Shown: piece after piece, positions 970 through 25,680 of the stretch | Numbering within the stretch: position 1 is the first letter of the stretch | Layout of the letters: each line of letters starts with the position of its first letter | From: a bacterium | Lineage (GTDB): Bacteria; JAJVIF01; JAGGVT01 | DNA length: 25,941 nucleotides | Reading direction: 5' to 3' | Assembly (NCBI GenBank): GCA_021157815.1 | Contig: JAGGVT010000174.1 | Span: 1 to 25,941, forward strand | Notes under the pieces: generated by a model | What the model was told of the DNA's origin: nothing | The model's input: only the letters and a program-made list of their open reading frames with translations | Databases searched by the model: none | Made by a program: the position numbers and the translations under genes

Positions 970-3834
970 TTACCAGTCAAACGTCTTCTGCCATTGTTTT
1001 TTCAATTTATAGATATCAGCATCGATGCACGTTTCGCCGTCTAAACCGCGAATCCTGAGACGACCATCATCCTGAATTATTCCAATCATCGTGATTGAGC
1101 AGGATTGCATAACGCGCATAAATACGGTTTCTTTTTCCGGCAGGATTTCCACAATAAGGCGTCCGGGAGATTCGCCGAACAGGATTTCAGCAGTCGATGG
1201 ATTACCCCGCGTGGGAAATTTCGCAAGGTCAACGGAGACACCAAGTCCGCCAGCGAACGCCATCTCAGACAAAGCTGCCGCGATTCCACCATCTGAAACA
1301 TCATGGCACGACACAACAAACTCTTTTGTGATGGCATCGTGAAGAACCATGTAATCGCGGATGTGAGTGTCCGGTTCAACATTCGGAATACTCCCACCGT
1401 GTAATCCTGCGATAATTGAAAGGTAACTTCCCGCAACTCCCGGCTTCGTGATTCCAAGAATATACAACGGATTTCCCGCGCGTTTGAAATCCATGGTGAC
1501 AGTTTTATCAACATCTTCAACAATCGCAATCGATGATATCAAGAGTGTATGCGGAATCTGAATCATTTCGCCGCCGTAAGAGTATTCGTTGTTAAGGCTG
1601 TCCTTTCCTGATATGAACGGGGTTTTATATTTCACAGCGACATCGTAACACGCTCTGCAAGTCTCATAGAGCGCACCAAGGCTTTCGGGTTTGCTGACAC
1701 TGCCCCATGCGAAGTTGTCCAGAATCGCCATTTGCTTAGGGTCAGCGCCAATCGCGACAGCGTTACGAACAGCCTCATCAATGGAATGAGCCGCCATTTG
1801 GTATGAGTCGATTTCACCTAGACGGGTATTTATCCCGTGAGTGATTGCGATTCCCTTTTTGGAATCACGCAGAGGCCGAATCACTGAGCCATCGGAGGGG
1901 CCATCGTTGCATGCTCCGACAAACGGTTTCACCGCGCTTTGCCCCTGTACCTCATGGTCATACTGCCTGACAACCCACTCCTTGGAGGCGACATCAGGAT
2001 GCGATAGGATTTTATTTAGAATATCCTCGAAACCGTCCTGTGGAATTACGCCATCAAGAGGTCTTGGTTCGTGCTTTACCACTACTTGTTTGGTCGATTG
2101 CGGGCATCCGTTATGCATGAAATCCATTTCGATATCGCAGACGATATTTCCATCGTATGTAAGCTCAAGGCGATTTGTGTCGGTGTATTCGCCGATTATC
2201 GTTGATTGAACATCCTCTTCATCGCAAATTTGAATCATCTCATCGACATTTTCAGGCGGGACAGCGAATACCATTCGCTCCTGCGCCTCACTGACCCAGA
2301 TTTCCCACGGCTGCAATCCCTCGTATTTAAGCGGGACAAGATTCAATTCGACTTTCGCCCCGGTTCGCTCTCCCATTTCACCGACCGCGCTTGACAGCCC
2401 TCCGGCCCCGCAATCGGTGACAGCACGAAAGAGTTTTTTATCGCGGCATTTGAGCATGACATCGGTGAATTTCTTTTCAGTTATCGGATTTCCAATCTGC
2501 ACCGCGCCGGATGAGTGTATTTCACTGCCCTCATCGAGCTCAAGCGAGCTGAAAGTCGCGCCGTGAATGCCATCCCGGCCTGTCGCTCCTCCGATTACAA
2601 GAATCTTGTCGCCGGTTTCAGCATCGCCGAATGATGCCCACTTCGGCATGATTCCCACCGTTCCGCAGTAAACAAGCGGGTTTCCGACATAATTCGGGTG
2701 GAAGTTAACGCTACCGTTGATTGTGGGTATTCCCATACGGTTGCCGTAATCGCGAACTCCGGCGACAACGCCTTTCATAATTCGCTTTGGGTGAAGGGTT
2801 CCCTTTGGCAGTTCATCGCGCGATGTTTCAGGATCGGCGAAACAGAAAATGTCTGTATTGGCGATTGGTTTCGCGCCAAGGCCGCATCCGAGGATATCTC
2901 GAATCACGCCGCCTATTCCCGTTCCAGCGCCCCCGTACGGTTCAATCGCTGATGGATGGTTATGTGTTTCCACTTTGAAACAGATGTTATGTTCATCATC
3001 AAACCTGATAATCCCGGCGTTGTCCTTGAATACTGAAACGCACATTGGATGGTTTATTTCACTTGTCGCTGCAAATACGGTTGATTTGAGCAGATTAGTA
3101 ATTTTCTTTTTATCGTTGATTACATAATCGCTTGTCAGCGTTTTGTGTATGCAGTGCTCGCTCCATGTCTGCGCAAGAGTTTCGAGTTCGACATCGGAGG
3201 GGTCGCGATCAAGTTTGATATAGTAATCCTGAATGATTGTCATTTCGGTGCGATTAAGCGCAAGGACACGATCTTTGCTGAGTTTGTCGAGGGCGTCGCC
3301 ATCAAGTTTACGAATCGGAACGGTTTCTGATATTGGTTTAATTGGAGTGCCTTTCGGAAACGGGTCGTCCGTGTCAGCCATCGTACGCTGGATGACCTTG
3401 TTCATGAGAAGCTTGTCGCGGATAAGTTCGAGTTCGTTATTTGTAAGATCACCAGCTATTAAGAAACGCTTTCCGGTTTTAACCTGCCGGATGCCATCGA
3501 TTCCCAACTCACTTATGCCCCTTAGAGCGGTCGCGCCAGCCGGGTCGGAAACTCCGGGCAGAAAGCCAATCAGAAACGAATGATAACCGCTGTTCGAATT
3601 TGAAAAACCGATTGAATAACGCTCAACCACAGGATCGCATAAAAGTTCCTTCGCCGCATTGTCAACCTCGCCCTCTGAAATCGCGCCTTTAAGCCAAAAG
3701 ACAGTGTTTATCCGTGCATTGAGTTTCGTGCCTATTCCGAGGTCACGGATGTCATCAATGAGACCGTTCGCGAATGGGTCGGGAAAACCATCTTTTTTTG
3801 AGATTTCAATAACGAATATTGCATCGTTTGGCAT
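970..3834 (-). CDS. purL: FGAM synthase synthetase subunit PurL with two N-terminal PurS-like domains
   Basis: ATP-dependent conversion of FGAR to FGAM using ammonia from PurQ. The ATG at 3834 (954 aa) is chosen because AAGGAGT lies 7-8 nt upstream; an in-frame extension to 3903 would run into purM and has no ribosome site. Residues about 5-74 and 84-153 each read as PurS-like modules, the second with GFLPGVSDPAGATALRG. The catalytic body follows: SEHC at about 225, VETHNHPSAIEPYGGAGTG from about 288, GGATGRDGIHGATFSS, TDCGAGGLSSAVGEMGE and CHDVSDGGIAAALSE. Small-type PurL is about 740 aa with a separate PurS, whereas the large single-chain enzyme (about 1300 aa) also includes PurQ. This protein is intermediate: PurS-PurS-PurL fused, PurQ separate. 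No separate purS gene is visible in the operon. Confidence 0.95.
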   Translation of the reverse strand: MPNDAIFVIEISKKDGFPDPFANGLIDDIRDLGIGTKLNARINTVFWLKGAISEGEVDNAAKELLCDPVVERYSIGFSNSNSGYHSFLIGFLPGVSDPAGATALRGISELGIDGIRQVKTGKRFLIAGDLTNNELELIRDKLLMNKVIQRTMADTDDPFPKGTPIKPISETVPIRKLDGDALDKLSKDRVLALNRTEMTIIQDYYIKLDRDPSDVELETLAQTWSEHCIHKTLTSDYVINDKKKITNLLKSTVFAATSEINHPMCVSVFKDNAGIIRFDDEHNICFKVETHNHPSAIEPYGGAGTGIGGVIRDILGCGLGAKPIANTDIFCFADPETSRDELPKGTLHPKRIMKGVVAGVRDYGNRMGIPTINGSVNFHPNYVGNPLVYCGTVGIMPKWASFGDAETGDKILVIGGATGRDGIHGATFSSLELDEGSEIHSSGAVQIGNPITEKKFTDVMLKCRDKKLFRAVTDCGAGGLSSAVGEMGERTGAKVELNLVPLKYEGLQPWEIWVSEAQERMVFAVPPENVDEMIQICDEEDVQSTIIGEYTDTNRLELTYDGNIVCDIEMDFMHNGCPQSTKQVVVKHEPRPLDGVIPQDGFEDILNKILSHPDVASKEWVVRQYDHEVQGQSAVKPFVGACNDGPSDGSVIRPLRDSKKGIAITHGINTRLGEIDSYQMAAHSIDEAVRNAVAIGADPKQMAILDNFAWGSVSKPESLGALYETCRACYDVAVKYKTPFISGKDSLNNEYSYGGEMIQIPHTLLISSIAIVEDVDKTVTMDFKRAGNPLYILGITKPGVAGSYLSIIAGLHGGSIPNVEPDTHIRDYMVLHDAITKEFVVSCHDVSDGGIAAALSEMAFAGGLGVSVDLAKFPTRGNPSTAEILFGESPGRLIVEILPEKETVFMRVMQSCSITMIGIIQDDGRLRIRGLDGETCIDADIYKLKKQWQKTFDW

Positions 3835-3865
3835 GCATTTACTCCTTACAGATTCTGGTTCAATC

Positions 3866-4933
3866 TCAACTGGTAAGAATAACCTCACCGTTTCCGGGAA
3901 CAATTTCGCCGATTATTTTGCTTTCAACCCCGAATCGCTTAAGAATAATCTGCGCGTTGTCAACCTCGCCACCGCGCATGACAAGTGCCATTCCGATTCC
4001 CATGTTGAATGCCTTGAACATCTCATCGTGGCTGATATTGCCCCACTCGACAACAATTTCGATTTCAGGCGGCACATCCCAGCTGGTCGGGTCAACGCGC
4101 GCGCTTAAATCATCAGGAAGAATTCTCGGAATGTTGCCGGTAATGCCACCGCCTGTGATATTCGCTATCCCCTGAATCTCAACGCCGTTTTCAATCAGTT
4201 CCATGACCGGTTTGACGTAAATCGTAGTCGGCTTTAACAAAGCGGCTCCCAGATAATTTTCAAGTTCGGGGACTTTGTCAGCATATTTATATGGCGACTT
4301 TTTCTCGATTACTTTGCGAATCAGTGAATACCCGTTTGAGTGAAATCCGCTTGATAACAGCCCGAGAACAACATCCCCTTCCCGAATGGCGGAGTTGTCA
4401 ATGACTTTGCTTTCATCGACAATTCCAACGCCAAAAGCCGCGAGGTCAAATTCGCCGGGTGGGTAAATATCCGGGAGTTCAGCTGTTTCACCGCCGACAA
4501 GCGCGCAGTCTGCCTGCTTGCATCCGGTAACAATGCCCTCGATTATTTTTTCAAACGTGTCATCATCGAATTTTCCAATCCCGATATAATCGAGCAGGAA
4601 CAGGGGTTTCGCGCCAACGCAGATAATATCGTTTACTACCATCGCGACAAGGTCAATACCGATTGTGTTGTATCGCTTCATTTCATGGGCAATCAGGAGT
4701 TTTGTGCCTACGCCGTCCGTTGAACTGACAAGAATCGGTTTGTCCATGCTTGAAATATCCGGACGGAAAAAACCGGCGAATCCGCCTATGCCGGTGGGAA
4801 CGCCTTTTGTGTGCGTCGAGCTCACAAGGGCTTTTATCCTGTCAATTGCCTTGTCCGTACGCTCGATATCCACACCGCTTTCAGCATATGTCATCCCTTT
4901 TTCTTTTTGTTTTTTTGTCATGTCGGCCATCAT
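3866..4933 (-). CDS. purM: Phosphoribosylformylglycinamidine cyclo-ligase (AIR synthetase) PurM
   Basis: Converts FGAM to AIR with ATP, the step after PurL/PurQ. Recognised by SSTDGVGTKLLIAH, then GIDLVAMVVNDIICVGAKPLFLLDY, GGETAELPDIYPPGEFD, LLSSGFHSNGYSLIR and IANITGGGITGNIPRI, all in canonical order. The family usually begins close to MTYAESGVDI, which here is an internal ATG at 4894 with AAAAAGGG directly against it. Upstream ATGs at 4933/4930 follow a weak GCGGGAT site, and a TTG at 4957 has none. I chose 4933; the Lys-rich extra residues before MTYA may not be translated. It is the first gene of the pur operon, with 31 bp to purL. Confidence 0.93.
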   Translation of the reverse strand: MMADMTKKQKEKGMTYAESGVDIERTDKAIDRIKALVSSTHTKGVPTGIGGFAGFFRPDISSMDKPILVSSTDGVGTKLLIAHEMKRYNTIGIDLVAMVVNDIICVGAKPLFLLDYIGIGKFDDDTFEKIIEGIVTGCKQADCALVGGETAELPDIYPPGEFDLAAFGVGIVDESKVIDNSAIREGDVVLGLLSSGFHSNGYSLIRKVIEKKSPYKYADKVPELENYLGAALLKPTTIYVKPVMELIENGVEIQGIANITGGGITGNIPRILPDDLSARVDPTSWDVPPEIEIVVEWGNISHDEMFKAFNMGIGMALVMRGGEVDNAQIILKRFGVESKIIGEIVPGNGEVILTS

Positions 4934-4998
4934 TATCCCGCAGGATGATTTTATCAATCAGAATGTGAAAGCATACGACAAGATTAAAATCATTTCCA

Positions 4999-5027
4999 CT
5001 TTTAAGGCTGAAAAGATAAAATTTCAA
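4999..5027 (-). promoter_or_regulatory. Candidate sigma70 promoter of the pur operon
   Basis: On the minus strand TTGAAA (5022-5027), a 17-bp spacer and TAAAAG (4999-5004) precede purM, giving a leader of roughly 60 nt. Five and four of six consensus bases match. No purine riboswitch-like fold was recognised in the short leader. Confidence 0.4.
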
Positions 5028-5194
5028 TTTTGAACCAAGGATTTTCATACAAAACTTGTCAAAATAAAATACGGATTGCTGATTGGTGGAACACAGATGA
5101 ATGTGGTGAAGTAGGTATCGCTGAAATCGGAGAACATCATTGCTGTGCTTGCGAGACACAATGATTTAGATATTTAAAATTTTAAAATGTGAGT

Positions 5195-5200
5195 TATAAT
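5195..5200 (+). promoter_or_regulatory. Perfect -10 box (TATAAT) ahead of the lipoprotein gene
   Basis: TATAAT sits 22 bp before the ATG at 5223, followed by the strong ribosome site CGGAGGTC. The -35 region is poor, so the promoter is tentative and would give a very short leader. Confidence 0.3.
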
Positions 5201-5222
5201 TAACATTTTACCGGAGGTCATC

Positions 5223-6239
5223 ATGAATATTAATGACAAAAGAACAACCTTTTTACTTATACTTTTGTTATTGTTCGCTGTTAGTTGCAGTGGAAACAAG
5301 GATCATGAAATTGGCACTCAACCTGATAACGTAGATGTAAATCTTGCAAACCCGACGAGATTAACAGATGCAAGCAGCGAAAAATACCCCATTTTGATTC
5401 CACCTGGGAAAGACGATTCATGTGAATTCTATTATTCAAACTCTAACCTGTATCATAATCGGCTTAATTTTTTTGGTAAGCAACTACGAGCTTTCCAAAC
5501 TAAATATGGTAGATATCCGGACACGCTTGAAGAATATTTAGATGCTGAAACTACTATATTCTGGCCCATTGATCCATTTACGAATAAACCATTTGTTTAT
5601 TCTAAATCTATCACCCCGGATTTAGGTTCGATGGGAAAATTCTCTTTTGAAAATGTTAAAGATAGAAATAATGAGATTGGACTTAAGATTCTGTGTTCTA
5701 TACCTACCGATGAGGAAACTTTCATGCTTGCGAATTATCCATTACCTGCGCCAGGAAATAATTTTGACAACATAAATATGCGTTATGAAAACCAATTCTC
5801 AACACTGCCTGATTATCTCAACTCACAAGCTTATTTATTGGCAGCGGATTATGCATATCAGTTTGGCGAACTACCTGAAACTTTGGGGGAATTCCTGTGC
5901 GGCTATTTAATAATCAAGGACAATTGGCCTGACATGAGTTCAATAAAATCAAAAGAGGATAAAGGTTATTTTGAGTTGGGTTTAACACCCGATAAATTAA
6001 CTTACTACAGCATTATCCATATGACAACTGGTTGGAAAAGGGAGAGAAGCTATACTTATGAATCAACGCCAAATCAAAAGAGAAAAATGAGCCAGAACCT
6101 GGCTATGGCACTGACTATGCCTGATGTATCCAAATTATCGCATATGGTTCCTTTTGCTTCATCGCTGATTTATCCGACTGCTGAATCTTTGCCAAAGGAA
6201 CTCTGCATAACAAAAACTGAGATTCTTGCATTGAAATAA
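5223..6239 (+). CDS. Predicted lipoprotein with two pilin-like (GspG-type) motifs
   Basis: Function unknown. The 338-aa product starts with a basic N-terminus, a hydrophobic stretch LLILLLLFAV and a lipobox-like AVSC, so Lgt (encoded later in this window) would acylate the Cys at about residue 22. The mature part has FQTKYGRYPDTLEEYLD followed by WPIDPFTNKPFVY, resembling the C-terminal part of type II secretion major pseudopilins. A second, more diverged copy occurs later: AYQFGELPETLGEFL, then NWPDM. No N-methylation prepilin motif is present, so it is not itself a pilin. CGGAGGTC about 6 nt upstream fixes the start. The coding sequence is noticeably more A+T-rich than the pur genes, which may point to a different history. 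Confidence 0.75.
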   Translation: MNINDKRTTFLLILLLLFAVSCSGNKDHEIGTQPDNVDVNLANPTRLTDASSEKYPILIPPGKDDSCEFYYSNSNLYHNRLNFFGKQLRAFQTKYGRYPDTLEEYLDAETTIFWPIDPFTNKPFVYSKSITPDLGSMGKFSFENVKDRNNEIGLKILCSIPTDEETFMLANYPLPAPGNNFDNINMRYENQFSTLPDYLNSQAYLLAADYAYQFGELPETLGEFLCGYLIIKDNWPDMSSIKSKEDKGYFELGLTPDKLTYYSIIHMTTGWKRERSYTYESTPNQKRKMSQNLAMALTMPDVSKLSHMVPFASSLIYPTAESLPKELCITKTEILALK

Positions 6240-6430
6240 GTAAACGGCCAAAGAATCCACTTTCCTGAACTTGCGATAGACACTGGGCTTATGAACGAGC
6301 CTTATTTAAGCCATCCAGTTTGAAGCCTCTTATGGACTATCCTCATTTCTTTAAAATCATTCGTCATTATTGAAATTTCATATTAGACCGCACAATTATC
6401 ACGCAAAAAGTGTCATAATAGTGAGGAAAG

Positions 6431-6450
6431 CACCATGCAAAAGCATGGTG
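6431..6450. other. Perfect 8-bp hairpin CACCATGC-AAAA-GCATGGTG
   Basis: A short stem-loop about 30 bp upstream of the next gene. The AAAGCATGGTGTTA half also occurs at 105-118 beside repeat family A, so this may be a repeat remnant and not a regulatory site. The rest of 6240-6478 shows nothing else clear. Confidence 0.4.
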
Positions 6451-6478
6451 TTACAGACAAATCATGGAGCGTCAAACA

Positions 6479-7591
6479 ATGCGAAATTACAAATCATTAG
6501 TTTTAATATACCCGTTGATTTTCCTTCTATCATTCATTGTCCTGTGCAATGAACCGGCAGTCGCGCAAAAGCATCCTGAACCAAGCATCATGATAGAGGA
6601 TTTCTATCCTGTCCAACGAGGCGTTCTTGAAAGGGCATGGGCACAGGTCGCAGGCGTGAATGGCGCGAATATTCCCCATATTCGTAAAGCAGCAAAGAAA
6701 TATAATATGCATCCCGCGGATGTCGCCACTGTTCTTGTCGCCGATTCGGCATGCCGATTCGCCTGGCCCGGCGGACTGCCGAATGAAATCCCGTTCGGAT
6801 TCGTCCATTCGCAGACCGGAATCTCCCAGATACCCCCCAGCATGGCGGCATCGCATAGATTGATAGAATCAGGCCTGTTGATTTCCGGGGCAAAATCGCG
6901 ATTCAAAAGAATGAGGGAATCGACACTGCAGCCTGAAAAGGGTGTCGATTACTGGTTTAAATCTCTGGTTGATGAATCATACGAAGCTATGAAAGATCCC
7001 GGCGTGAATATAAGAGTCGCTGCGCGATTCATGCGTCGAGTCTCGAATGCCGCTTTAAATCTGTATAAGCCAGATGCCCGTGATTCTCTTATGATGGATG
7101 ATCAAAGCCTTATTCCCAAGCAGCATATCAGATGGGCGGATGAATTCGACTGGGGTAAACTGAAAAAATACCTTCGCGACCACATGTTGTGGGATTATAC
7201 CTATGAATTTGATATAACTGAGTTCGCGCCGTCGGATGACAGAATCAGCGAACTCAACATGATGATTCTCTATTCGGAATATCGCACAAGTCCGCCGTTC
7301 GATGGCTCCTGGTTTTTCGAGGCGATGTATCTTGTGCGTGAAACAAGGCGATGGCTTAACTCGCGTGAGGATATTCTTGACCAGCTGAAACCTCTGGATG
7401 GCAAAGTCAAACCGTATGTTGAATGGGTTGAGGATTATTCGTTCTACCAGAATGAGGCTGAAATGCTTAATCCGGGAAGAGTCCGGACTGAAGATGAGGA
7501 TTCCGGCAATACAAATGATAAAGAAGAGAAAAAGGACGAGAAGTCTAAAAGCGAAGACAAGGGAAAACGTAAAACCAGAGGCGGGTACTAA
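6479..7591 (+). CDS. Secreted lysozyme-fold-like protein, degenerate lytic transglycosylase
   Basis: 370 aa from the ATG at 6479, chosen because GGAG lies 9 nt upstream; the ATG at 6464 contains that site. Residues 1-30 form a signal peptide ending near AVAQ. A region from about 75 to 190 follows the order of lytic transglycosylase (SLT) motifs: a helix ending VLVADSACRF, then TGISQIPPSMA (compare GLMQIMPxTA), then NIRVAARFMRR (compare NIxLGxxYL). The position expected to hold the catalytic Glu (ESxF) is Asp89, and the spacing to the second motif is longer than usual. It may be inactive or a binding protein. The C-terminus is a charged, Lys/Glu-rich tail of about 40 residues. Its end overlaps the end of the convergent HTH gene by 4 bp. 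The fold assignment is inference from motif order. Confidence 0.6.
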   Translation: MRNYKSLVLIYPLIFLLSFIVLCNEPAVAQKHPEPSIMIEDFYPVQRGVLERAWAQVAGVNGANIPHIRKAAKKYNMHPADVATVLVADSACRFAWPGGLPNEIPFGFVHSQTGISQIPPSMAASHRLIESGLLISGAKSRFKRMRESTLQPEKGVDYWFKSLVDESYEAMKDPGVNIRVAARFMRRVSNAALNLYKPDARDSLMMDDQSLIPKQHIRWADEFDWGKLKKYLRDHMLWDYTYEFDITEFAPSDDRISELNMMILYSEYRTSPPFDGSWFFEAMYLVRETRRWLNSREDILDQLKPLDGKVKPYVEWVEDYSFYQNEAEMLNPGRVRTEDEDSGNTNDKEEKKDEKSKSEDKGKRKTRGGY

Positions 7592-17987: not shown

Positions 17988-20720
17988 ATGCCCGACAAAG
18001 ATGAAGAACTGGTTGATGATAACACCGAAGAAAAAATCGAGCAGATTCCTGACGTGAATCAACTGGATGATATTGAATCAGATGATGACAAGGATGCGAT
18101 AGACCTGTCGCCGTATATCTACCCAATCGCATCTTTTCTGATACCGCTGATTGTATATTGGCGAACGATGTGCACGGCGTTATATATCGGGGATGGCGGC
18201 GATTTTATCACCGCGAGCCATACTCTTGGGCTTCCGCATCCGCCGGGATATCCGCTTTATACGCTGCTTGGCAAGCTGTTTTTATCGCTGCCGATTCCGG
18301 GCGGATTAAGTGAAGCGGCGTGGCGGATGAATTTCATGTCAGCGTTTTTCGGAGCTCTGACAGCTCTTCTGGCATATCTGCTAATTAAGCGAATCACGAA
18401 ATACGACTGGCTTGCTTTTTTCGCGGCGCTGACAATTGCATTCGGGCGAACATTCTGGTCGCAGGCCGTTATCGCCGAGGTTTACACGCTGAATACGTTT
18501 TTCATACTTTTGCAGCTTTACCTTCTTGTAATCAGAACTGACAAATTCGCCGGCAGGACTCTAATCTGGATGGGGCTTGCACTTGGATTAAGCCTCGCGC
18601 ATCACCCATCAATCGCGATTTTCTTCCCGGCGTATATTTATTATTCCTACATTCATCGCGATTATCCGATGACCCGGCTATTAATTGTCGCGCTGGCTTT
18701 CGGGCTTGCGATTATCAACCCTATCGGAATTTTGGCAATCCTTCTGCTGATTCCTCATGAGCTGATTATCGCAAAGGTGAAAAAACAGGACTTTCTCAAA
18801 TTGCAGAAATCGGCGCTGGCATTCGCATTATTGGTTTTTATTCTGTCAGTTGGACTGTACGCCTACCTGCCGATTGTGAAATATAAAAATCCGGTTACAG
18901 GCCCACTGGAATTTGAATCAATACAGCAAAATGTCCAGTACTTTGTTGAGACAGTTACGCGCTCGATTTACCAATATAAGGCAATGAGTCCGGGCGAAGC
19001 GCTTACAACCACTCCGATGGTTTTTAAGCGTTATTTGGAAATCCTTTGGGATGATTACCTCGCGCTGGTGTTTATATTTTTCCTGGGATTCATGGCGATT
19101 AAGCGAAAGGTTCACATCGCCGCAGTGGCATTTATTTGCTATGCGTTGTTCATGATTACAGTTTTGTTCTATCCATCCGGCGATATACTGCACGCGCCTT
19201 TGAAAAACCTTGAGGTTGTCATGCCGCCTCTTATGATTCCCGCGCAGTTGATGTATATCCTGTTCGGGTTTATCGGCATCGGATGCGTCCTTGACTGGAT
19301 ACCCGGTTATGTCGAATCGATGAGGAAAATCGATCCAATGCCGACGGAGAAGAAAATCAGGTTTTTGAATGGCGTCGTGATTGGTTCGCTTGTTCTTCTT
19401 GTCCTTGTTGTAATACCTATTCACAACTGGTTTTTCTGCGATAAATCCAAAAGCCTTACCGCGTACAATTACGCGCGCAATGTGATTATCAGTGCTCCTG
19501 ACAACTCGTTCGTTCTCAATACAGGCGATGAAACTTTCCTGTTTTGGTATCTGACTGAAGTCGAGCATTTCATGCCTGAGAAAAACGTTGTACTTCAAAA
19601 TTGGATTCACAATATCAGGGGGTTCGAGGTTCTTGCAAATGAGGAACAGGCGATCAAAGACGTTCTGATGTGGGTGCTGAAAAACCGTGAATGGTCAATC
19701 ACTGACAAGGAATTTAAGGAGATAGACCATCACCTGCCAAAATTCGACCACTACTGCGCTACTTTCCTTACAGACTACATCCAAAAGGATATTCTTTTTG
19801 CATCCCAGGATGTTGTCATGCATGATTTGGTTTACGAGTTCGTGTTTAAACCACAGGAGTATTATGATAAATATAATTACGAAATCCATCCTGAGTATGG
19901 CATTGTCAAGATTGAGGAGCCTATAGATTTAGAAAGTGAAGATGCTGAAAAAACACCGTTCATTTCACTTGAGAAACGGCGGATGGAACAGTCATATTTC
20001 GAGGACGACTACCCCGGAATGCGCCTTAGAATGGATGGTGATATTCCGTTCGACACTTTCCATTGGGAGGGATTGTTTATCCCCGAATATGACGCGACGG
20101 GAAAAGTGATTAAACTGGATTACGACCAATCGTACCACGACCCGCAGGAGGATGAGATAATCGGGCGGTACCAGGAGATGCTCCACAATATCGGAGCATG
20201 GAATGTGCATGTGGCATCGGGAATAGAGCGCCAGGAAGATCAGGTTGAACCTCTGAAAACAGCGACATCGGCGTTTCGTAACGAGATAAAACTGAAAGTT
20301 ACCGACCCCGTGGGATGGCTCAGTCTGGGTAATGTTTATATTCAACTTCGAATGATGGATCAGGCTGTCGAGGCTTTGACACAGCACAAGAATCTGGTCA
20401 TGTTTCTTCCCGATTCCACAATGAAAAAGAAATCGGAAGCGCATTATTATCTTGCGTACGCGCTATATATAATGGGCGATTTTAACCACGCGCGAAAAGA
20501 GATAGATTCCGCCCTGCTGTTTGATTCCACCTCTGAACAAGCCTCCAAACTGAGAAAGACAATTCTTGAGCAGGAGGAGTTGACCAGGAAGAAAATTGAT
20601 AAACTTAAAAAGAAAATTGAAAATAGTGATGAAGAAGATGAAGAAATCGAAGACGGAATGGGTAGTCTTGAGTTGGGCGGTGAGTTGGAAAAAAGCGATG
20701 AGGGGGAGGGGAAAGGTTAG
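17988..20720 (+). CDS. DUF2723 membrane protein with C-terminal TPR-like region
   Basis: 910 aa. An acidic N-terminal tail (about 40 residues) precedes about a dozen membrane segments. GDGGDFITASHTLGLPHPPG (68-87) with PLY matches the conserved first-loop region of DUF2723 proteins, related to GT-C glycosyltransferases; the acidic residue there is the expected catalytic or metal site. After the membrane part comes a soluble domain, then helix pairs (GWLSLGNVYIQLRMMDQAVEAL and AHYYLAYALYIMGDFNHARKEI) typical of TPR repeats, and a coiled, highly charged end. A role in glycan or protein glycosylation is inferred from the family. The ATG follows GGAG by 7 nt. The TAG stop lies inside the first unit of octamer array D. 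Confidence 0.8.
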   Translation: MPDKDEELVDDNTEEKIEQIPDVNQLDDIESDDDKDAIDLSPYIYPIASFLIPLIVYWRTMCTALYIGDGGDFITASHTLGLPHPPGYPLYTLLGKLFLSLPIPGGLSEAAWRMNFMSAFFGALTALLAYLLIKRITKYDWLAFFAALTIAFGRTFWSQAVIAEVYTLNTFFILLQLYLLVIRTDKFAGRTLIWMGLALGLSLAHHPSIAIFFPAYIYYSYIHRDYPMTRLLIVALAFGLAIINPIGILAILLLIPHELIIAKVKKQDFLKLQKSALAFALLVFILSVGLYAYLPIVKYKNPVTGPLEFESIQQNVQYFVETVTRSIYQYKAMSPGEALTTTPMVFKRYLEILWDDYLALVFIFFLGFMAIKRKVHIAAVAFICYALFMITVLFYPSGDILHAPLKNLEVVMPPLMIPAQLMYILFGFIGIGCVLDWIPGYVESMRKIDPMPTEKKIRFLNGVVIGSLVLLVLVVIPIHNWFFCDKSKSLTAYNYARNVIISAPDNSFVLNTGDETFLFWYLTEVEHFMPEKNVVLQNWIHNIRGFEVLANEEQAIKDVLMWVLKNREWSITDKEFKEIDHHLPKFDHYCATFLTDYIQKDILFASQDVVMHDLVYEFVFKPQEYYDKYNYEIHPEYGIVKIEEPIDLESEDAEKTPFISLEKRRMEQSYFEDDYPGMRLRMDGDIPFDTFHWEGLFIPEYDATGKVIKLDYDQSYHDPQEDEIIGRYQEMLHNIGAWNVHVASGIERQEDQVEPLKTATSAFRNEIKLKVTDPVGWLSLGNVYIQLRMMDQAVEALTQHKNLVMFLPDSTMKKKSEAHYYLAYALYIMGDFNHARKEIDSALLFDSTSEQASKLRKTILEQEELTRKKIDKLKKKIENSDEEDEEIEDGMGSLELGGELEKSDEGEGKG

Positions 20721-21033: not shown

Positions 21034-22155
21034 CTATTCAGACAGGCGGACGGGCATTATTACATAGAGGAAATCCTCATCTCCGGGAATGGTTATCAAT
21101 CCAGGCTGCAATTGATTTCCAAACTGAAGTTCAATTTCCTCGGAGTCAATATTCTGAATGGGATCCATCAGGAACTTGTAATTGAACGCGACTTTAATAT
21201 CATCGCCCTCTTTCTGGACAGGAAGTTTTTGCGTGGATGATCCCAGACTTTCCACATGCGCGTTAATTGTAAGCATGTCACCATCTGTTGACAGAACAGC
21301 CATGTCCCGACCTTCTCGCTGCCTTGCCACAATCGCGACACCTCTTACAGCCTGCTCCAATAATTCACGTTCAATAATTAGTTTCCCAATGAAATCATGA
21401 GGAATCACTCTATCGTAATCAGGATATTTGGCATCGATAATATGAGTTGTTATTACCGTGTCGCCCAAATCGAATTGTGTCATTTCCTTGCTAATCGTAA
21501 TTTTGATATCATTCTCGCATCCAAAAGACAAAATTCTTAACAGATCATCCATGGACTTTGCTGGAATAAGAGCTTTGATTCCATCCTTGGGCGAGCGGCC
21601 CTCGATAGGGCATCTGTCAAGCGCGAGACGCCGTCCATCCGTGGCAATCATTACGCACTTTTTCGCTTCAATGACAATATAGATTCCGTTCGACCATGTC
21701 CTGGCGGAATCTTTGCTTGAGGCATAGGTGGTTTTTTTGAGTGAATTTAAAAGCTCACTGGGTGATGTTTTAAATGTGCTTCCCTTTTCCTTTATGTCCG
21801 GGAACTCAGGATATTCTTCTGCACTGATTCCATGAATGTCATACTCCGATGATTCTGTCTTGACAGTTACACGAGTGCCATCCTTGATCTCCATTACAAC
21901 TTCACCATCGGGAAGCTGAGAAATTACCTCATGAAGCATCTTTGCAGGCAACGCGAGATTGCCCTCGCCCTCGGTGGTAACCTCGAATGTATTGCGGACA
22001 CTCATCTCAAGGTCGTAAGATATTAGCGTGATGCTATTTTTACCGTATTGAATCAGCACATTACCCAGTATGGGAAGTGTCGGCTTGGTCGGCACAGCCT
22101 TTGAAATGATGTTCAGTGACCTTATGAGATCTTTATGTTGGCAAATAACTTTCAT
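21034..22155 (-). CDS. dnaN: DNA polymerase III beta subunit (sliding clamp)
   Basis: Ring-shaped processivity clamp of the replicase. The 373-aa product from the ATG at 22155 (GGAGGT 9 nt upstream) begins MKVICQHKDLIRSLNIISKA. It has PTKPTLPILGNVLI, the three-domain clamp pattern (LPAKMLHEVISQLPDGEV, GIYIVIEAKKCVMIATDGRR and LEQAVRGVAIVARQREGRD) and the usual C-terminal LYVIMPVRL. Length is normal. An upstream in-frame extension to 22317 lacks similarity and crosses the promoter. In many bacteria dnaN follows dnaA near oriC. Here it is alone, divergent from a ccdA-like gene, and no DnaA-box cluster was noticed. Confidence 0.96.
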   Translation of the reverse strand: MKVICQHKDLIRSLNIISKAVPTKPTLPILGNVLIQYGKNSITLISYDLEMSVRNTFEVTTEGEGNLALPAKMLHEVISQLPDGEVVMEIKDGTRVTVKTESSEYDIHGISAEEYPEFPDIKEKGSTFKTSPSELLNSLKKTTYASSKDSARTWSNGIYIVIEAKKCVMIATDGRRLALDRCPIEGRSPKDGIKALIPAKSMDDLLRILSFGCENDIKITISKEMTQFDLGDTVITTHIIDAKYPDYDRVIPHDFIGKLIIERELLEQAVRGVAIVARQREGRDMAVLSTDGDMLTINAHVESLGSSTQKLPVQKEGDDIKVAFNYKFLMDPIQNIDSEEIELQFGNQLQPGLITIPGDEDFLYVIMPVRLSE

Positions 22156-22216
22156 GCTAGATAAACCTCCAAAACCTTGGATGAATGAAAAATCATTATC
22201 CTCAATAGAAACGAGA

Positions 22217-22245
22217 ATTATAGTCTTTTTAAACCTGATTGTAAA
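22217..22245 (-). promoter_or_regulatory. Sigma70 promoter of dnaN
   Basis: On the minus strand TTTACA (22240-22245), a 17-bp spacer and a perfect TATAAT (22217-22222), about 60 bp before the dnaN start codon. Confidence 0.7.
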
Positions 22246-22312: not shown

Positions 22313-22392
22313 GCCACATCATGTATCTTGATTTGAAACTCTTGATTTGAAACATCAAGATGCTTGAAGATAAATACAGGGGCACAAAAACA

Positions 22393-23157
22393 ATGAAAAA
22401 AAGTATCACGTACAAAGTTATGTCAAACTCGCTGGCGTTCATCGTGGGATTCTCGATTATCTTCATTTTCGTAATCGGCTCGCTTGCCGGTTCACTGACC
22501 AAGTTTTTCTTCGACTACACAGATACAATCAACAAGATTCTTGGAGTGATAGTTGTAATTCTCGGAATTCACATGCTGGGTATTTTCAAGATTACAGCGC
22601 TTATGAGTGAAAAGCGATTCAACATGGCGGAGAGAAAATGGGGACTTGCAGGCAGTATGGTTGTTGGGATGGCGTTCGCATTCGGCTGGACACCTTGCAT
22701 CGGGCCGATTCTGTTCGCGATATTCGCTCTCGCGCAGGAGTCGGGCAATTACTGGACATCGCTTCTTCTAATGGCCTTTTACTCACTTGGGCTCGCTATT
22801 CCGTTTCTACTCACCGCTCTCGCGCTTAATAAATTCCTTTTGTGGTTTCAAAAATTCAAACAGCATTTCAGGAAAGTTGAGATTTTCAGCGGGATTCTTG
22901 TTATGGGAATCGGCGTTCTGATTTTCACTGGCGGATTAAGTTCCCTGAACCAGTATTTCGCAGGCCTTGGTGGATTGGAAGCAGACCTTCAAGATCGTGT
23001 CTTCGGTGAGTCGCAGATCAACCTGTTGTTTGCTTTTGTTGGCGGACTTATCTCGTTCCTCAGTCCGTGCGTACTGCCAATGATGCCGATGTATATAAGC
23101 TACATCTCAGGAGTTTCCATCGGTGAGATGACAGGTGAGGTTAAGGGCGGGGAATAA
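22393..23157 (+). CDS. CcdA/DsbD-family membrane thiol transporter with circularly permuted helices
   Basis: CcdA passes electrons from cytoplasmic thioredoxin across the membrane to extracytoplasmic thiol proteins (cytochrome c maturation, disulphide repair). In the 254-aa product six membrane segments are seen at about 12-34, 47-67, 85-111, 121-145, 163-185 and 208-239. GWTPCIGPI (Cys102) is in the third and SFLSPCVLPMMP (Cys226) in the last. In ordinary CcdA the SPCVLP helix comes first and GWTPCIGP fourth, so here the first helix stands at the C-terminus. The rest (SLAFIVGFSIIFIF onwards) begins where family helix 2 begins. The region upstream encodes no SPCVLP helix in any frame I can read. 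The ATG at 22393 has AGGGG about 10 nt upstream; the ATG at 22360 has no site. Confidence 0.85.
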   Translation: MKKSITYKVMSNSLAFIVGFSIIFIFVIGSLAGSLTKFFFDYTDTINKILGVIVVILGIHMLGIFKITALMSEKRFNMAERKWGLAGSMVVGMAFAFGWTPCIGPILFAIFALAQESGNYWTSLLLMAFYSLGLAIPFLLTALALNKFLLWFQKFKQHFRKVEIFSGILVMGIGVLIFTGGLSSLNQYFAGLGGLEADLQDRVFGESQINLLFAFVGGLISFLSPCVLPMMPMYISYISGVSIGEMTGEVKGGE

Positions 23158-23871: not shown

Positions 23872-25554
23872 TTATCCATCATCATTATTGCCGTAATCCG
23901 ATGCCAATTCCAGCTGCTGCGCCATCTCATTTGAAAGAACGCCAAATTCGCCATAGGTGAAATAGATTCCCCATGCATTCTTCAGGTCAAGCATATACGA
24001 CCTCACAGCTTCAATTCCCTCAATATCCATTCCGGGAATTATGCTGATTCGAGAGTTGTCAGCAATATTAATCAGCATTTCACTTGTGAATACCGCGACT
24101 TTCTCATCGTCTTTCAATTTGAAAACCCAGTATTTTTTATCATCAATTGTTACTGACGGCAGCTTCATACGCATATCATTCCATCCGAAAGCCAGCATGG
24201 TTTCACCATTAGCGGCAATGGGTCTTTGCGACAGGTATCGAGTCCAAAGGATATTGTAATGCGGCAAGTAGTACATCAGGACACGATAATTCAAATCACT
24301 CATAATCAAAATATTGTCGGGGCCGCCAACATCATCGGACAACGTATCAAGGCTATTAATCATCAACATAACATAAGCATCGCTGGCATAAAGCCTGTGA
24401 TAGTTGTAGCCATCGGGGTCATACTTTCTATATGTCTCGCCTAAAACCAGAATATCCAGGGAGAAAAACACAATCAAAAGATGAAGAGGAATAATTACAG
24501 CCAGCAGTTTGATTATGTCATTACGATTTAATGCAGCATGACCGATTTTAATACGCAGCGATGAAAACCATCCCGCGACTTTGTTGATGCCAAGAGCTGT
24601 TACAATCGCGATTAGGGGTGAAATGAATAACGGTATTCCGGGATAATTCACATAGTTAATCGAGTAGAGGATAATCGCTGGCGCTCCCCATAAGAGGAAA
24701 AATGGTGATGTCGGCAACTCGTTTGATTTCTTTTTGCGCCAGCTGAAAAGCGGGATAATCGCGAAAAACGCCCATCCGGGGAATGACTGTCGAAGGTAGA
24801 AATAAATCGCTCGCCAGTTTTTAACAAGCTTCCCAAGTGGTTTGTGCAAAAGCGCGCTGATGTTACGCTGGTGTTTTCCGCCTTCTGATGCCAGTTCAGC
24901 GAGATATGCCGTAAATCCTCCACTGAGTAACGCGACCGGAATCAACCACGCGGCTTGTAGAATCAGATATATTCCCGATGCCATCAGCAGCTTTTTGTAT
25001 CCAAGACGATACACCGCCCAGATTGCAAGCGGGACAAGAAGGATTGATTCATACGGCCGGACCATTCCCATGAGTCCAAGCGCGATTGCTATTTTCCATG
25101 CGTTTTTCTCTTTCCCGCTGATAATGCGCCATGCGAGAAACGCGACTAAAATAGAGAAAAACGCTCCCGAAGTATATGTCAGCGCTTTTAATTCTTGGTA
25201 TATGGTCAGTGGCGCAAAAGCATACAGTCCGGCGGCAAGCCATGCGACTGATGAACTGCCGGACATTTCACGCACAAGTTTGAGAATTAATACCGCAGCG
25301 ATTGTTGACAGAAGCAATCCGATTAACACAAAGGAAAGGTTGGGGTTGTGTGTAAGACAAGTCAGAATTTTCCCAGTTAGAATATAAAGCGGATATCCAG
25401 GAGGATGCGGTCGATGCTCCAGTATGTTGTAGCGCTCAATCGCCAGAGCAAACTGTGCTGAATCCCACCAGCTTAGAAGATGCGAACGGTGCTGCAATTT
25501 CAGCATGAATACCAGAACAGCCGCCAGTATGGGAATGAGATCAAATGACTTCAT
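23872..25554 (-). CDS. GT-C-like multi-membrane protein (HPPGYPLY family)
   Basis: 560 aa from the ATG at 25554; an in-frame TTG at 25596 would add 14 polar residues but has GAGAG directly against it, and neither start has a good site. About ten membrane segments are followed by a soluble domain of roughly 180 residues. The first loop has WWDSAQFA (29-36) and HRPHPPGYPLY (to 57), the same arrangement as in DUF2723 proteins and other GT-C glycosyltransferases that use lipid-linked sugars; the Asp in WWDS is the likely catalytic residue. Substrate unknown. It has only distant similarity to the 910-aa protein at 17988 and lacks its TPR tail. It is the first gene of a three-gene minus-strand unit. 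Confidence 0.75.
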   Translation of the reverse strand: MKSFDLIPILAAVLVFMLKLQHRSHLLSWWDSAQFALAIERYNILEHRPHPPGYPLYILTGKILTCLTHNPNLSFVLIGLLLSTIAAVLILKLVREMSGSSSVAWLAAGLYAFAPLTIYQELKALTYTSGAFFSILVAFLAWRIISGKEKNAWKIAIALGLMGMVRPYESILLVPLAIWAVYRLGYKKLLMASGIYLILQAAWLIPVALLSGGFTAYLAELASEGGKHQRNISALLHKPLGKLVKNWRAIYFYLRQSFPGWAFFAIIPLFSWRKKKSNELPTSPFFLLWGAPAIILYSINYVNYPGIPLFISPLIAIVTALGINKVAGWFSSLRIKIGHAALNRNDIIKLLAVIIPLHLLIVFFSLDILVLGETYRKYDPDGYNYHRLYASDAYVMLMINSLDTLSDDVGGPDNILIMSDLNYRVLMYYLPHYNILWTRYLSQRPIAANGETMLAFGWNDMRMKLPSVTIDDKKYWVFKLKDDEKVAVFTSEMLINIADNSRISIIPGMDIEGIEAVRSYMLDLKNAWGIYFTYGEFGVLSNEMAQQLELASDYGNNDDG

Positions 25555-25680
25555 GCCGAAACGCGTTTCCGATTGCTTTTTAGTTTCCTGATTCAACTCT
25601 CACATTTTCGATGTAACTACGGAATAAATCAAGGGAATTTAGTGATGTGATTTAATGATGCGTTAAAAAAAAGGATTTAT

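Follow-up and report, generated by a model that had tools for sequence, protein, structure and literature searches.

Locus and gene structure

The window, by which we mean the whole 25,941-nt stretch of DNA that was analysed, comes from a draft genome of 3.2 Mb in 221 contigs (91% complete; G000) and contains, at 22393-23157 on the plus strand, a gene for a 254-residue protein whose translation, Pfam match and PDB match point to a circularly permuted form of CcdA. An in-frame ATG at 22360 is an alternative start that would add 11 residues; a Shine-Dalgarno-like AGGGG, as read from the sequence, is located at 22378-22382 on the plus strand, 10 nt ahead of the ATG at 22393. The gene has one start, one stop and no frame break, its base composition is fairly even throughout, and no repeats were found at its joins. 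It is flanked by dnaN (21034-22236) on one side and by a gene for a DUF1599 protein on the other, both on the minus strand; no redox partner gene was found beside it, i.e. the gene stands alone. A promoter scan at the gene gave results at chance level and a terminator was not found. Just upstream, at 22326-22353, there is a perfect tandem duplication of TCTTGATTTGAAAC (2 × 14 nt), and the surroundings of the dnaN-ccdA pair encode two TMEM260-like (protein O-mannosyl-transferase-like) membrane proteins, at 17988-20717 and 23875-25596, the first of which has C-terminal TPR repeats.

The protein has six transmembrane helices, as predicted from hydropathy and from the secondary structure of an AlphaFold model, which are numbered here as in the CcdA family; all the coordinates that follow are on the plus strand. 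Family helix 2 is now the first helix (residues 14-32; 22432-22488) and is preceded by a Lys-rich N-tail that is predicted to be cytoplasmic. It is followed by helix 3 (residues 49-67; 22537-22593), helix 4 (residues 95-113; 22675-22731), which carries the motif GWTPCIGP with the redox residue Cys102 (codon 22696-22698), helix 5 (residues 124-142; 22762-22818) and helix 6 (residues 164-182; 22882-22938). A new linker of net negative charge, predicted to be periplasmic (residues 183-210; 22939-23022), leads from helix 6 to family helix 1, which has been moved to the C-terminus (residues 211-229; 23023-23079) and carries SPCVLP with the redox residue Cys226 (codon 23068-23070). The C-terminal tail, MMPMYISYISGVSIGEMTGEVKGGE (23080-23154), corresponds to the last part of family helix 1 together with the first part of the loop between helices 1 and 2, and is predicted to be cytoplasmic.

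Helix order of the window protein

The preliminary description had reported a reversed order of the redox cysteines and an N-terminus that starts at family helix 2. Both observations are borne out: in the translation of 22393-23157 Cys102 in GWTPCIGP precedes Cys226 in SPCVLP, and of the two stretches in which PF02683 (DsbD_TM) matches the protein (50.7 bits; cut-off 27.1) the longer begins at profile position 42, which lies beyond helix 1. The sole PDB match found with phmmer, Thermus thermophilus CcdA (5vkv), is likewise divided, with residues 10-190 of the window protein matching chain residues 40-211 (i-E 4.7e-22) and residues 209-241 matching chain residues 3-35 (i-E 2.8e-5). Chance cannot, on these sequence matches, explain two stretches of 5vkv in swapped order, from which the helix order 2-3-4-5-6-1 follows; a circular permutation with the cut in the loop between helices 1 and 2 is the reading supported by the window sequence. 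Three-frame reading of the plus-strand flanks revealed no SPCxLP-type helix 1 upstream of the gene, and the idea of a helix 1 hidden there in another frame was rejected on this basis; nor was a helix-2-like remnant found downstream of the stop codon. Searches of the G000 genome, with the protein and with PF02683, found no second CcdA/DsbD membrane domain.

Two of the features that characterise CcdA are present in the window protein, namely the six (predicted) transmembrane helices and the motif pair SPCxLP in helix 1 and W(T/A/S)PCxGP in helix 4, the latter also being present in the permuted homologues described below. Another, the order of helices 1-6 collinear with the profile and with periplasmic termini, is absent. 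Because the two profile stretches lie in swapped order, the protein is filed here as a circularly permuted CcdA homologue, not as an ordinary family member.

Recurrence in other lineages

The preliminary description had proposed looking for homologues with a C-terminal SPCVLP-type helix, and such a search identified permuted genes in an Armatimonadota MAG and in six of the seven genomes of another phylum. In a contig search covering 80 relatives, helix 1 came before helices 2-6 wherever both were present, with the exception of a single contig, WVXJ01000251.1 of Armatimonadetes bacterium CS1-C002 (locus L060; genome G059), on which a complete permuted ORF of 262 residues lies mid-contig. The encoded protein (P0002) is collinear with the window protein from end to end (39% identity over 246 residues, E 4e-42) and its gene is the only strong CcdA/DsbD match in that genome. 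Among the 291 Armatimonadota genomes searched, 22 gave matches, the 21 others having the normal order in their best match. Normal helix order was also found in the nearest class relative of the window genome with a whole gene (G003) and in all the remaining relatives whose helix order was readable.

Several other candidates were rejected. The ccdA of G001 had been considered as a split gene; it is cut by contig ends and its pieces fit the normal order. Extra rows that seemed to span the permuted arrangement, such as those of G521, G358, G369 and G502, contain stops and were taken as read-through past the stop into unrelated sequence; when read, G358 and G521 have the normal order. The phage record MT835550.1 was dismissed as a permuted copy, its CcdA order being normal; the locus in question (2855-6532) belongs to an unverified faecal phage record and is probably bacterial sequence. 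No permuted copy was seen in the plasmids and viral contigs searched.

In a spread sample of 385 genomes, two further rows, G384 and G652, spanned the permuted arrangement at full length. Of the seven genomes searched in the phylum to which G384 belongs, six carry a full-length permuted CcdA, and these six fall into two families. One of these (f93) comprises G384 and four other genomes, whose permuted proteins are 56-69% identical to that of G384; in the second, the permuted protein of G680 is 34% identical to that of G384. The five f93 genes have dN values of 0.04-0.40 against dS values of 0.36-1.7, i.e. the permuted genes in this family are under purifying selection, and conservation among the five proteins is highest in the moved helix. 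Both redox motifs are intact in all six permuted proteins aligned. In this lineage a match to 5vkv in two swapped stretches was found for the G384 protein; L146, for which such a match was obtained, falls below the PF02683 cut-off in Pfam, which the Armatimonadota protein and that of G680 do reach. Family profiles miss such permuted proteins or split them into two stretches. No further permuted lineage was found in a second spread sample of 385 genomes, which largely overlaps the first, or, at a strict threshold, in 132 genomes of the phylum of G012. These searches lead us to conclude that the permuted form is rare, but real and inherited.

The gene neighbourhoods of the permuted copies vary. 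In family f93 (L145:1947-6454, L146:3310-6124) recJ lies immediately upstream of the permuted ccdA and overlaps it by 8 nt. The next gene in G652 is lepA, and in the Armatimonadota copy lepA is found two genes upstream, a likeness that is probably coincidence. In G680 (L156:974-2187) the permuted gene directly adjoins one for an ArsC-like low-molecular-weight phosphatase/arsenate reductase, beyond which there is an alcohol-dehydrogenase-like ORF; in this genome CcdA may have taken on a role in the redox chemistry of arsenic or thiols.

Route and number of origins

According to the preliminary description, tandem duplication followed by trimming could have produced the permutation. By this route, the most likely one, ccdA would have been duplicated in tandem, the end of the first copy would have been fused in frame to the start of the second, and helix 1 of the first copy and helices 2-6 of the second would then have been lost. 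By comparison with canonical C-tails, the linker of the window protein reads as a native-like C-tail (GLSSLNQYFAGLGGLE) followed by a native-like N-tail (SQIN), with the C-tail part FTGGLSSLNQYFAGLGGLE resembling LTGGMMRIAALFSSFGGFAE in the C-tail of a normal CcdA (L048), and it is on this account that the route is plausible. The linker has the make-up that this route would leave, but no intermediate was found: none of 137 CcdA-like ORF readings in the loci examined showed a second helix-1 or helix-4 motif, and the long ORFs inspected as candidate tandem or double-helix-1 intermediates were rejected, being CcdA-thioredoxin fusions or open upstream.

The number of such events was addressed with trees built from sequences restored to the family helix order. 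A careful 64-row tree joins the G059 protein to Armatimonadota proteins of normal order (97/89) and the window protein to a different normal-order group (98/95). A 121-row tree counts three changes of helix order. A single origin followed by horizontal transfer, which would explain all the permuted copies without several independent permutations, is possible, if somewhat doubtful. It is compatible with the shared cut in the same loop in G000 and G059, and with AU tests that do not reject the two as sisters (p = 0.691 on the quick tree and 0.156 on the careful tree), tests which led us to drop a firm claim of independent origins for this pair; against it stand the separate normal-order groupings in the better tree, the three changes on the larger one, and the far greater divergence of the genes from the phylum of G384. 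We favour two or three origins over one. We give even odds to the more specific proposal that CcdA underwent several independent permutations, each with its cut in the same loop, and that the permuted form has taken the place of the normal one in nearly all of a small phylum. If true, this would be the clearest natural case in which a polytopic helical membrane protein has been circularly permuted repeatedly, and one in which the helix orientations are all kept while the termini are shifted to the other side of the membrane.

Topology and predicted structure

The termini of native CcdA lie on the same side of the membrane. The preliminary description argued that moving helix 1 behind helix 6 keeps every helix orientation and transfers both new termini to the opposite side. 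The charge distribution agrees with such a flip, which would bring both termini into the cytoplasm. The loop charges fit the positive-inside rule, with the N-tail and the loops between helices 3 and 4 and between helices 5 and 6 cytoplasmic and the new linker (net charge -3) periplasmic; the C-terminal tail is then predicted to be cytoplasmic, its own charge not being diagnostic. This pattern implies that helix orientation is conserved while both termini change sides.

The fold was predicted with AlphaFold2 from an input alignment of helix 2-6 rows together with permuted proteins; when normal helix-1 fragments were entered as rows of their own, the alignment deteriorated, helices 1 and 4 being similar to each other. 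The resulting model has a pLDDT of 81.5 and a pTM of 0.76, with values of 84-87 in the moved helix, compared with a pLDDT of 77.9 and a pTM of 0.73 for a normal-order control (from L031). For both models 5vkv was the top VIA-align match, residues 1-235 of the control aligning with chain residues 1-209 (Z 8.9, rmsd 4.3, 191 residues) and residues 5-205 of the permuted model with chain residues 36-224 (Z 6.6, rmsd 5.2 Å, 182 residues). VIA-align is an order-dependent aligner, and its match, which covers helices 2-6 and cannot place the moved helix 1, is as expected for a permuted model; the agreement of the model with 5vkv is moderate. Foldseek searches of the PDB returned poor matches (best E 0.16).

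The moved helix might instead swap into a neighbouring chain, such that the working unit would be a dimer or oligomer with exchanged helices. The 28-residue linker is long enough for either arrangement; however, with the native termini on the same side, closure within one chain needs no swap, and the single-chain model is globally confident (pTM 0.76), so that we consider helix exchange unlikely.

Proposed function

The evidence overall favours, with a probability of roughly 85%, the reading that the gene is a real and functional circularly permuted CcdA, with helices 2-3-4-5-6 followed by helix 1. The usual task of CcdA is to move electrons through the membrane, from thioredoxin in the cytoplasm to thiol proteins of the periplasm. 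In the window protein the six helices would keep their orientations and pack as in CcdA, placing Cys226 of helix 1 next to Cys102 of helix 4; reducing equivalents would travel by way of this pair from cytoplasmic thioredoxin to TlpA/ResA-like lipoproteins in the periplasm. The path of the chain alone would differ, both termini being cytoplasmic and the native termini being joined by the periplasmic linker of about 28 residues. Family knowledge and the conserved cysteines make electron transfer the most likely activity. Likely candidate partners encoded in the genome are TlpA proteins (L161 and L165) that resemble lipoproteins and carry WCAPC or YCEPC motifs.

That a genuine genomic rearrangement left a non-functional, decaying pseudogene is highly improbable: the permuted form is known from just one genome of its class, but the frame is open, the motifs are intact, the topology signals are native-like, the gene is the only CcdA found in the genome, and purifying selection acts on permuted homologues elsewhere. 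Least probable is an assembly artefact, with a normal ccdA broken up and put together again in a false order, as might be suspected from the fragmented, incomplete draft and from the normal order in G003; the uninterrupted frame, even composition, lack of repeats at the joins and lack of a normal copy elsewhere in the genome speak against it, and the case against such a join, which is very unlikely, rests on recurrence: the order and the cut loop are shared with the complete mid-contig Armatimonadota gene and with the permuted genes of six genomes from a further small phylum.

Comparison with known systems

Among soluble proteins, natural circular permutation is a familiar event. The permuted CcdA is a real case, found in nature, of a membrane protein with several helices that has been circularly permuted; descriptions of such cases are very few. 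It shares with CcdA/DsbD_TM (PF02683; 5vkv) homologous helices 1-6, single-Cys motifs in helices 1 and 4, charged cytoplasmic loops and a size of about 250 residues; it differs in the order 2-3-4-5-6-1, in termini predicted to be cytoplasmic instead of periplasmic, and in the new periplasmic linker that joins the native termini. It is a CcdA homologue that departs from the family in helix order and retains the sequence features tested. CcdA-TlpA fusions likewise contain a CcdA membrane domain; those at L170, L171, L172, L174 and L176 have the normal order and carry a thioredoxin/TlpA domain on the periplasmic C-terminus, whereas the permuted form has no fusion and, its termini facing the other side, could not carry such a domain on the same side. 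A description of circular permutation in CcdA or DsbD was not found in the mostly open literature searched; an earlier one may exist elsewhere.

The closest precedent is the pair VKOR and DsbB, two families of polytopic helical membrane thiol oxidoreductases between which a natural circular permutation has been proposed (PMC4555120). A survey from 2015 knew of no report of circular permutation in polytopic helical membrane proteins before this pair, for which the proposed route is also duplication, followed by outer deletions (PMC4555120). VKOR and DsbB share 12-14% identity and their link by permutation is inferred from structure (PMC4555120), whereas permuted and normal CcdA belong to one family and are up to 48-49% identical when placed in the same order. 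With both forms in one family, insertion and folding under a changed helix order become directly testable; if the protein works, helix 1 of CcdA can be inserted last.
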